DNA from: Acidobacteriota bacterium
Lineage (GTDB): Bacteria; Acidobacteriota; Blastocatellia; UBA7656
Length of the DNA: 64,000 nt
Assembly (NCBI GenBank): GCA_016201275.1
Contig: JACQDB010000161.1
Span: 1-64,000, forward strand
Direction of reading: 5' to 3'
A program made the translations under genes and the position numbers. Shown in pieces: positions 14,830 through 18,073 of the stretch (within the stretch, counting starts at the first letter, position 1; every line of letters begins with the position of its first letter). The notes beneath the pieces were generated by a model. That model saw only the letters and a list, made by a program, of their open reading frames with translations. It did not search any database and was not told the origin of the DNA.

Positions 14830-15432
14830 TCAATTAGCAATCTGCACTTGATGGCTCATCGCTTTTTGCGATTCGCCTGCAGGGGTCTGTTTCTCGCGGC
14901 TCAATTTTTTGTAGTAGTCCGAGATGTATCGCTTCATGCCAAACTGCACCCAACTCATGCCGTATTTTTCCGCTTCGGCTTTGGCTTGCGCGGCGGTTTG
15001 GCTTTCTTGACTCATGCGATAACAGGCGATGACGACACCGGTTCTATCGGCTCCGTGTTGGCAATGGACAAAGACCACACCGTTTTCAGGATTGTTGATA
15101 ATCGCTAAGGCCTGGGTGATTTGCTCATCGCTTGGACGACTCAACCCGCCCATTGGCAGAGCGAAATAATTCAAGCCCAAGGCTTGCGCTTCGCGTTGTT
15201 CGGCCTGGGTGTTTTCATCTTCGCCGCGCAGGTTCAGTATGCTCTTGACGCCTAGTGCGGCCAATTTTTTCAGGCCGTCTTTTTTCGGTTGTGCGCCGCG
15301 ATAGAGGCGTTCGTTGACCTGATGAAAATTCGGCAACTCCGCATAGCGCGGCTCGGTTTGTGAAAAGGCGTTGATAGACAACAGCGCCATCACCACAGCG
15401 ATGACGCTGAATTTCGGAAGAAAAAATTTCAT
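14830..15432 (-). CDS. Exported dual-specificity/tyrosine phosphatase (first of tandem pair)
   Basis: A 200-residue protein with a signal peptide (MKFFLPKFSVIAVVMALLSINAF), so it acts in the periplasm or beyond. The phosphatase P-loop HCQHGADRTG gives nucleophile C124 and R130 in the C-x5-R pattern of cysteine-dependent phosphatases (DSP/PTP-like fold). The phrase LYRGAQPK is typical of DSP proteins resembling the plant-type atypical phosphatases. It is the downstream partner of a homologous gene at 15487, 54 bp away on the same strand. The substrate is unknown; phosphoproteins, inositol phosphates and polyphosphates are options. Confidence 0.87.
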   Translation of the reverse strand: MKFFLPKFSVIAVVMALLSINAFSQTEPRYAELPNFHQVNERLYRGAQPKKDGLKKLAALGVKSILNLRGEDENTQAEQREAQALGLNYFALPMGGLSRPSDEQITQALAIINNPENGVVFVHCQHGADRTGVVIACYRMSQESQTAAQAKAEAEKYGMSWVQFGMKRYISDYYKKLSREKQTPAGESQKAMSHQVQIAN

Positions 15433-15486: not shown

Positions 15487-16062
15487 TTACTTGGAACTGC
15501 CATTGACGGTGGTTGCGCCGACAGCGCTGTGAGCATGGTAATCCAGCACATAATCTTTCAACGCGCCATGTCCGAAGCCGTAGCCGAAATCAAATTGCTT
15601 CATTTCGTCATAAGCTTTGGCGGCGTCCCAGCCGTCTTTTTCCATGCGATACACTGCCGTGATTAAACCGGTGCGATGGCGACCGCCTTTGCAATGCACG
15701 AAGACCGGTTGATTGGCCGGGTCATTGACGATTTGCAGAACCTTTTGCACCTGTTCGTCGGTCGGGCGTTCATCGTCTTTCATGCCGACCTGAACATATT
15801 TCATGCCAGCGGCTTCGACCAGTTGGCCTTCTTTGGAACTTCGCATTTGCAAATCAATAACGGTTTTCACGCCCATTGCGGCGAGGTCTTGATAGTCGGA
15901 ATCTTTGGGCTGGGCACCACGGAAATAGTTCTGATTAATGAAGCCGAAGTTTTTAATTTTGGTTTTGAAATACGGCTGTTTCTCCTGAGCGATTGAGGTC
16001 AACGCCAACGCCAGAAGTACCATAGCGGTTGCTACGAATGAAAATTTTTTTACCACACGCAT
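15487..16062 (-). CDS. Exported dual-specificity/tyrosine phosphatase (second of tandem pair)
   Basis: A 191-residue paralogue of the neighbouring phosphatase, with signal peptide (residues 1-26) and P-loop HCKGGRHRTG, nucleophile C124 and R130 at the same positions as in its neighbour. ATG 16062 is chosen because AAGGAG lies six bases before it; a GTG at 16068 is possible. The two genes share order and spacing typical of tandem duplication followed by divergence. The C-terminal tail beyond residue 165 differs between them, so substrate choice may differ. Confidence 0.87.
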   Translation of the reverse strand: MRVVKKFSFVATAMVLLALALTSIAQEKQPYFKTKIKNFGFINQNYFRGAQPKDSDYQDLAAMGVKTVIDLQMRSSKEGQLVEAAGMKYVQVGMKDDERPTDEQVQKVLQIVNDPANQPVFVHCKGGRHRTGLITAVYRMEKDGWDAAKAYDEMKQFDFGYGFGHGALKDYVLDYHAHSAVGATTVNGSSK

Positions 16063-16177
16063 ACACACTCCTTACTTCTCTATCTTAGTTTTGTTGTGAA
16101 TCTCTGCCTAATGATTTTAGGGGATTGCGATATTTATGATACCTTTCAAAATGAAAAAGTTGCAATCGTAAATTTAT

Positions 16178-16313: not shown

Positions 16314-17261
16314 ATGGATATGCAAACCCAAGCCCTTTTGAAAGACCGCGCCAGAGATTTTTTCGCGTTGCTACAAGATGAAATCTGCGCGGCACTAGAG
16401 GCGTTGGACGGTGCGGCGCAGTTCCGCGAAGACCTCTGGCAACGCGAAGGCGGCGGCGGACGCACCCGCGTCATCGAAGACGGCGCGCTGTTTGAAAAAG
16501 GCGGCGTCAATTTTTCAGCCGTGCATGGCAACTTTGACGAAGCCTTTGCCGAGCGTATGCCGATAGGCAGCGGCACGGAGTTTTTTGCCACCGGGGTTTC
16601 CCTGGTACTGCATCCCTTGAATCCTATGGTGCCGACCGTTCACGCCAACTTCCGCTACCTTGAAAGAGGCTCTGGTGGCTGGTTTGGTGGCGGCAGCGAC
16701 TTGACGCCGTATTATCCGGACCGCGAAGACGCGGTGCATTTTCATCACACCTTGAAAGCCGTTTGTGACCGCTTCGACCCCGCTTATTATCCGCGCTTCA
16801 AAAAATGGTGCGATGAATATTTCTATCTCCAACACCGCGACGAAGCCAGAGGCATCGGCGGTATCTTCTTCGACTATTTACCCGGCCAAGGCCATTCAGA
16901 AGCGGCAAACGCAATAAGCAAAATCGAAGAAGTGTTCGCCTTCGTGCAGAGCGCGGGGCGCGCTTTTCTGCCTGCCTATCTGCCGATTGTCGAACGGCGG
17001 CGCGGCGAAAGCTACACCGAACGCGAACGCGAATTTCAATTGATTCGGCGCGGACGTTATGTGGAATTCAATCTGGTCTATGATCGCGGCACCACCTTCG
17101 GGCTGGAGACTCGCGGACGCACGGAATCCATATTGATGTCTTTGCCGCCGCTGGTGCGCTGGGTTTACGATTACCGCCCAGAGCCGCACAGCCGCGAAGC
17201 CCTAGCTTGGGAATTTTTCAAAGCGCAGGACTGGCTGGGCAAGCAGGGTGCGGACGCTTGA
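16314..17261 (+). CDS. hemF: Oxygen-dependent coproporphyrinogen-III oxidase
   Basis: Converts coproporphyrinogen III to protoporphyrinogen IX by two oxidative decarboxylations, using O2, in haem synthesis. The 315-residue length is normal. Family signatures are seen at [31 protein letters not shown], and near the C-terminus [16 protein letters not shown]. It is cytosolic. ATG 16314 follows AAAGGA; ATG 16320 is an alternative with better spacing. No other haem gene is adjacent. Presence of this enzyme rather than only HemN implies aerobic growth. Identification is firm. Confidence 0.97.
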
Positions 17262-17332
17262 TAAAAAATTCTTATCCGCTTGCGACGGCAACCGCTCATT
17301 CAGGTGCATAAATTCAGCAACGGAGATTGACC

Positions 17333-17629
17333 ATGGCTTTAGTGATTGATTCGGCTCGCAACGAAGTGCGCGCTCTGGAACAGGTGACAAACTGGCGCGG
17401 CAAACAGGTATTGGAAATCGGTTGCGGCAACGGGCGATTGAGCTTGCGCCTGGCGCGACTGGGCGCATACGTTCAGGCCGTTGACCCGGACGCCAGACAA
17501 ATTCGCGACGCGCAAGAAGCGTTGCCGAAGCACTTGTCGCGGCGAGTTCAATATATGGTCGGCAATGGCGAGCAGTTGGCTTTTCCATCCAACCGCTTCG
17601 ACCTTGTAGTATTTTCGTGGGTGCTGTGA
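17333..17629 (+). CDS. Class I SAM methyltransferase, N-terminal part ending at in-frame TGA
   Basis: A 98-residue segment that holds the SAM-binding half of a Rossmann-fold methyltransferase: motif I VLEIGCGNGRLSLRLA, an acidic residue at AVDPD, and strand LVVFSWVL at its end. A good ribosome site (GGAG, 17322-17325) precedes ATG 17333. The frame stops at TGA 17627-17629, followed at once by TGA 17630-17632, and then continues in the same frame as the C-terminal part. Alone it lacks the last strands of the fold, so either the gene is broken, or the two TGA codons are read through, or two polypeptides assemble. Confidence 0.75.
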   Translation: MALVIDSARNEVRALEQVTNWRGKQVLEIGCGNGRLSLRLARLGAYVQAVDPDARQIRDAQEALPKHLSRRVQYMVGNGEQLAFPSNRFDLVVFSWVL

Positions 17630-17632
17630 TGA

Positions 17633-18073
17633 ATGGCTCACGAGGGCATGGTTCATGCTCTGCACGAAGCGCATCGCGTGCTGAAGGCGGACGGCCTTTT
17701 GCTTGATTTGCGTCCCGCGCTTCAGCATCGCCGCGTCAGTCTGGTCGCAGGGAAACAGTGGCAACCGGTCGGCGTGATGCGCGAAAAATTTATTGATGAT
17801 CGGGCGGCGAATCGCGCTGTCGCCAGAGTCTTGCGCGCCGGGCTGTTCAATTGTGAAGCCGTCAGGGAATTTGACCTCGACCGCGTGATGGATACCACAG
17901 CGGATTTTCAGGCGTGGCTTGACGATTTCATAGCACGCGGCAAGGCCCCGTCGCATGAATGGTTAATCAAACGCCTCGAACGCTTGCAGCGCCCTCGACG
18001 CCCGAAACTGAAAATCGTTGTGCGCGGGGCGATCATGATGAAGGTGTTGAGGAAACCGTCTGGCAACCACTAG
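17633..18073 (+). CDS. Class I SAM methyltransferase, C-terminal part in the same frame
   Basis: A 146-residue continuation, in frame with 17333-17629, beginning at the ATG right after TGA TGA. It contains the expected next element of the fold (ALHEAHRVLKADGLLLDLRP) and the C-terminal substrate region. There is no Shine-Dalgarno sequence before this ATG, so expression would need stop-restart coupling or readthrough. The coding sequence looks well preserved across its whole length with no other stop, which argues against an old pseudogene. Confidence 0.7.
   Translation: MAHEGMVHALHEAHRVLKADGLLLDLRPALQHRRVSLVAGKQWQPVGVMREKFIDDRAANRAVARVLRAGLFNCEAVREFDLDRVMDTTADFQAWLDDFIARGKAPSHEWLIKRLERLQRPRRPKLKIVVRGAIMMKVLRKPSGNH
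17644..17660 (+). promoter_or_regulatory. SECIS-like 17-nt hairpin after the double TGA
   Basis: GGGCAT (17644-17649) pairs with ATGCTC (17655-17660; one G-T pair) around loop GGTTC. It starts exactly 11 nt after the second TGA. The minimal SECIS of Escherichia coli fdhF is likewise a 17-nt hairpin 11 nt after UGA with a GGUC loop. The bulged U of fdhF is absent here. A short hairpin can arise by chance, so function is unproven. Confidence 0.35.

Follow-up and report, generated by a model that had tools for sequence, protein, structure and literature searches.

A bacterial methyltransferase gene with a conserved in-frame UGA pair and a SECIS-like hairpin, a probable case of adjacent selenocysteines

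Within the window, the whole 64,000-nucleotide stretch of DNA that was analysed, two consecutive in-frame UGA codons are very probably both decoded as selenocysteine (Sec) in a single methyltransferase of 246 residues. The computed support for this reading consists of the conserved UGA pair, a conserved and covarying hairpin, selection on both sides of the pair, and a complete Sec machinery in the genome. In the proposed mechanism, SelB and Sec-tRNA(Sec) would decode both UGA codons as Sec, with a single SECIS hairpin just 3′ of the pair directing both insertions. We infer that Sec is present at both positions of the protein and that a single hairpin acts on the two codons.

From the ATG at 17333 to the TAG at 18071-18073, the reading frame is broken solely by the TGA TGA at 17627-17632 (Table 1). 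The initial annotation had taken the two sides for parts of one class I methyltransferase, and this is borne out by the read-through product, which matches the Methyltransf_11 profile with 75.3 bits over profile positions 1-93 of 95 (cut-off 21.2), compared with 54.6 bits (profile 1-70) for the N-terminal piece alone and no domain match for the C-terminal piece alone. Motif I of the class I SAM-methyltransferases is present as LEIGCGNGRL, and the AlphaFold2 model (pLDDT 88.8) has a Rossmann-like fold and matches methyltransferases in the PDB. Judged by its sequence, the gene product is one class I SAM-dependent methyltransferase, with methyl transfer as its predicted activity. Gene finders break the gene at the TGA pair, and the family has therefore probably been missed in annotations. 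The gene directly upstream (16314-17261, + strand) looks like hemF, encoding coproporphyrinogen III oxidase, and is a neighbour that is not kept in other genomes. Two adjoining genes on the minus strand (14830-15432 and 15487-16068) resemble related tyrosine/dual-specificity phosphatases with the motifs HCQHGADRTG and HCKGGRHRTG, and both have signal-peptide-like starts.

Table 1. Coordinates of the methyltransferase gene and its predicted recoding elements in the window.
Feature	Position	Strand	Remarks
Methyltransferase gene, both TGAs read through	17333-18073	+	246 residues; stop TAG 18071-18073
GGAG, ribosome-site-like, 7 nt 5′ of ATG 17333	17322-17325	+	sequence
First TGA, predicted Sec, residue 99	17627-17629	+	TGA in column in 18/18 orthologues
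Second TGA, predicted Sec, residue 100	17630-17632	+	TGA in column in 18/18 orthologues
Bacterial SECIS-like hairpin	17643-17661	+	stem 17643-17649 with 17655-17661; loop GGTTC 17650-17654

A first orthologue search covered 396 genomes drawn from the phylum and yielded four orthologues outside the window's class, with identities of 50%, 37%, 36% and 32% and two TGAs in each; in the five-sequence alignment, identity to the window protein is 31-52%. A second, profile-based search of one class (193 genomes) added 13 further orthologues with two TGAs, as well as one that runs into a contig end ahead of the site and was left out, so that the set covering the site comprises 18 sequences from four classes (the window and 17 others). 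Searches of two further classes added no orthologues, a contig scan with a single protein query returned solely an unrelated Streptococcus methyltransferase, a plasmid search gave no match, and the matches from a viral-contig search included none that extends the family.

TGA TGA occupies the identical column in all 18 orthologues across the four classes, and the depth of the orthologue tree means that its retention is of long standing. A Cys or Trp codon is only one base from TGA, yet both TGAs are invariant throughout the set. The initial annotation had suggested that Sec-Sec stands in place of Cys-Cys and that homologues be examined for Cys or Sec at the site. The Sec-Sec part of that proposal is favoured by the invariant pair, the hairpin and the machinery, whereas the replacement of Cys-Cys is conjectural, there being no Cys-Cys orthologue among the 18 that cover the site. 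Cys versions are usual, though not required, among homologues of selenoproteins, and the lack of one here is a point against Sec. The more distant methyltransferases among the fetched loci carry varied residues at this position, sometimes with Cys as the first of the two. Values of dN/dS are below 1 both before and after the TGA pair, being 0.26-0.46 downstream of it in seven orthologue pairs, where they indicate purifying selection.

The 18-orthologue alignment also separates two forms of the family, a W-type (SWxLUU...GMV[HD]AL) and an R-type (SR[SM][LM]UU...[SNR]VGD[AV]L). The sequence from genome G369 clusters with R-type sequences belonging to a class other than its own, a placement suggestive of gene transfer from class to class or of an ancient duplication. 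Outside a single group of related genomes no gene neighbour is conserved, and no function gains support from a conserved neighbour. In genome G142 (L086 9617-10951), an ArsM-like methyltransferase frame with a Cys-rich tail (ACCPPGSCC) lies right behind the orthologue, a single case read by eye, and a rhodanese-like gene is found two genes upstream.

The hairpin reported in the initial annotation at 17644-17660, with the loop GGTTC and 11 nt from the second TGA, is confirmed as a core of 6 bp, to which an extra A-U pair (17643-17661) adds a seventh, making the distance 10 nt when counted to the 7-bp stem. As a single sequence the hairpin is unremarkable (z -0.07 to -0.48), and for the window sequence alone the chance of all 7 pairs is 0.09 given the protein and codon usage. 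Its significance derives instead from its conservation, as all 7 stem pairs are kept in 18/18 orthologues at the same distance, ungapped and with compensatory changes. RNAalifold independently recovers the same helix, the cells changed on both sides number 15 compared with 5.2 in shuffles (over eight pairs), and sliding the partner columns lowers the pairing from 95% to 31-52%. Since the stem lies in coding sequence, each sequence was recoded synonymously with the family codon usage in 5,000 trials; all 7 pairs survived in 1.3 of the 18 sequences on average and in 6 at most, versus 18 of 18 observed, a result that is not a strict p-value as the sequences are related. The protein forms GMV[HD]AL and [SNR]VGD[AV]L build the same helix from different bases. 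With a 5-nt loop, a 7-bp stem, a G within the first two loop positions, UGA-to-loop distances of 17 and 20 nt for the two UGAs and energies of -9.7 to -14.7 kcal/mol, the hairpin falls within the published limits for a bacterial SECIS (bSECIS), among them a UGA-to-loop distance of 16-37 nt, counted from either UGA (PMC13188914). A search of Rfam gave no meaningful match. As a rule, each bacterial SECIS acts on a single UGA at a fixed spacing, and it speaks against the proposal that we know of no bacterial precedent for two adjacent codons served by one hairpin. The arrangement of UGA UGA with one short hairpin raises the testable question of SelB reloading for the very next codon.

The lack of any sel gene in the 64-kb window, counted against Sec in the initial annotation, carries no weight since these genes sit elsewhere in the source genome (6.84 Mb, 98.7% complete), which encodes selA, selB and selD together with a tRNA-Sec with anticodon UCA. 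A genome devoid of selB or tRNA-Sec, the case envisaged there as speaking against the proposal, is thus not what was found. The SelD of this genome (L148, G000:C76:39650-40579) has one in-frame TGA at the usual place, within the motif SCAGUAAK, and is itself a selenoprotein that serves as an internal positive control for decoding of UGA as Sec. A tRNA-Sec scoring over the Rfam cut-off is present in each of the first five genomes (5/5). Among the 15 carriers of the gene in the class of G155, 13 have tRNA-Sec, and it was not detected in the carriers G486 (87% complete) and G487 (74% complete). Both of these assemblies are incomplete, and of their gene copies (L133 and L146, respectively) one is complete and the other is cut by a contig end. 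As tRNA-Sec is common in this class (137 of 193 genomes), its co-occurrence with the gene says little either way.

Apart from the TGA pair that divides it the gene is intact, and an intact copy is absent from the source genome, as would be the case for an ordinary methyltransferase disrupted by two nonsense mutations or by an error in sequencing. The occurrence of the same pair in 17 other assemblies, spread over four classes, excludes a sequencing error at 17627-17632, and together with the purifying selection behind the pair it makes a broken gene scarcely credible. Stop-restart, in which two proteins are made and the second starts at the ATG right after the TGA pair (TGATGAATG), is highly improbable. 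The codon after the pair is indeed ATG in the window, but among the 18 orthologues it is CTG in eight, ATC in five, GTG in two and ATG, TTG and CAC in one each, so that ATG, GTG or TTG follows in only four and the start is not conserved. Furthermore, the split falls within the methyltransferase domain, and restart or termination would leave unexplained both the conserved hairpin and the fact that the stops are always TGA. A double stop mutation and stop-restart coupling, which the initial annotation had considered as also fitting, are therefore rejected on the conserved pair, the dN/dS values and the start codon in 4/18.

It is also quite unlikely that only one of the codons specifies Sec, with a near-cognate tRNA (Trp or Cys), or read-through of a general kind, accounting for the other UGA. 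The hairpin lies 10-11 nt from the second UGA and 13-14 nt from the first, the shorter distance being closer to the classical spacing, and this would suit a single Sec; however, both UGAs lie within the 16-37 nt limit to the loop, and neither TGA has given way in any of the 18 orthologues to the Trp or Cys codon one base away. A general reassignment of TGA was discarded, as ordinary genes here end in TGA, for example the upstream gene at 17261.

With both UGAs decoded as Sec, the location of the pair in the protein bears on its possible function. In the AlphaFold2 model, residues 99-100 come after the strand 89-95 and before the helix 103-116, and profile alignments to solved structures place the UU pair opposite the HH of RebM and AtmM and the Cys-His of TleD. 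The Sec-Sec pair is thereby predicted to follow strand beta-4, at the position of the active-site 'LHH' pair of related methyltransferases, and the histidines aligned with it presumably line the active site in RebM-type methyltransferases. Besides the UU pair, the sole nearly invariant Cys is that of motif I, itself absent in G486, and so no resolving Cys is evident. Two neighbouring Sec at an active-site position, never replaced in 18 members, suggest that sulfur is no equal for their chemistry at this site. ArsM-type enzymes bind metal(loid)s via thiols and methylate them from SAM. By analogy with these and with other selenoprotein methyltransferases, the vicinal selenolates might hold a soft metal(loid), or another soft acceptor, to which a methyl group from SAM is passed. 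This is the most likely of the functions considered, but still a speculative guess of fairly low probability, with a vicinal diselenide switch and a Se-methyl intermediate as alternatives. Also tentative, with the balance of probability somewhat against it, is the combined proposal that one SECIS drives two successive Sec insertions and that the selenolate pair replaces active-site residues and performs chemistry new to the fold, for example by holding a soft metal(loid) between the selenols or by passing a methyl group via Sec.

The known systems that most resemble this gene each share only some of its features. The E. coli fdhF SECIS is a short stem-loop about 11 nt after the UGA, with a GGU loop. 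The hairpin described here has two UGA codons in front of it where fdhF has one, and it lacks the bulged U, as the initial annotation had pointed out; this absence does not count against Sec, as the bulge belongs to the fdhF type and the general limits in PMC13188914 are respected. RebM, AtmM and TleD (3bus, 6uv6 and 5gm1) are alike in fold and SAM domain and share the aligned position after beta-4, but they are without Sec, have a different C-terminal part and act on natural-product substrates. In NCBIfam release 20, no model scores over its cut-off. The corrinoid protein-associated methyltransferase CpaM (NF043040) has the best NCBIfam E-value in all five members scanned, with 71.9 bits compared with a cut-off of 180 and a likeness confined to the common SAM domain. 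A SAM-methyltransferase domain is combined with Sec, in some cases two or three, in MduS (NF045649), UXPK-star (NF047649), ArsM/AhpD (NF041537) and ArsM/DUF2284 (NF041536), and the MduS, UXPK-star and ArsM/AhpD models give the window protein 38.1-44.4 bits with cut-offs of 380-510. The families of Haft and Tolstoy 2025 were compared via NCBIfam and a 2026 review, which covers 119 prokaryotic selenoprotein families with no UU motif; the motifs of known selenoprotein methyltransferases are CxxU or UxxG rather than UU, none of them being listed with neighbouring Sec residues (PMC13188914). No bacterial Sec-Sec protein was found in the literature searched, which took in few subscription papers. 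Two consecutive Sec are shared with the algal PDI_e selenoprotein (GUGUU motif), the only published Sec-Sec case found, which a 2020 paper reported as the first of its kind (PMC7539508). That protein, however, is eukaryotic, a PDI according to its authors (thioredoxin-like fold), and in eukaryotes the SECIS works from the 3′ UTR, whereas the protein described here is bacterial, has the domain and fold of a methyltransferase, and its hairpin is in frame right after the codons. The methyltransferase thus seems to be a bacterial selenoprotein of a kind not described before and a new family, and what sets this family apart is an adjacent Sec pair behind one bSECIS.
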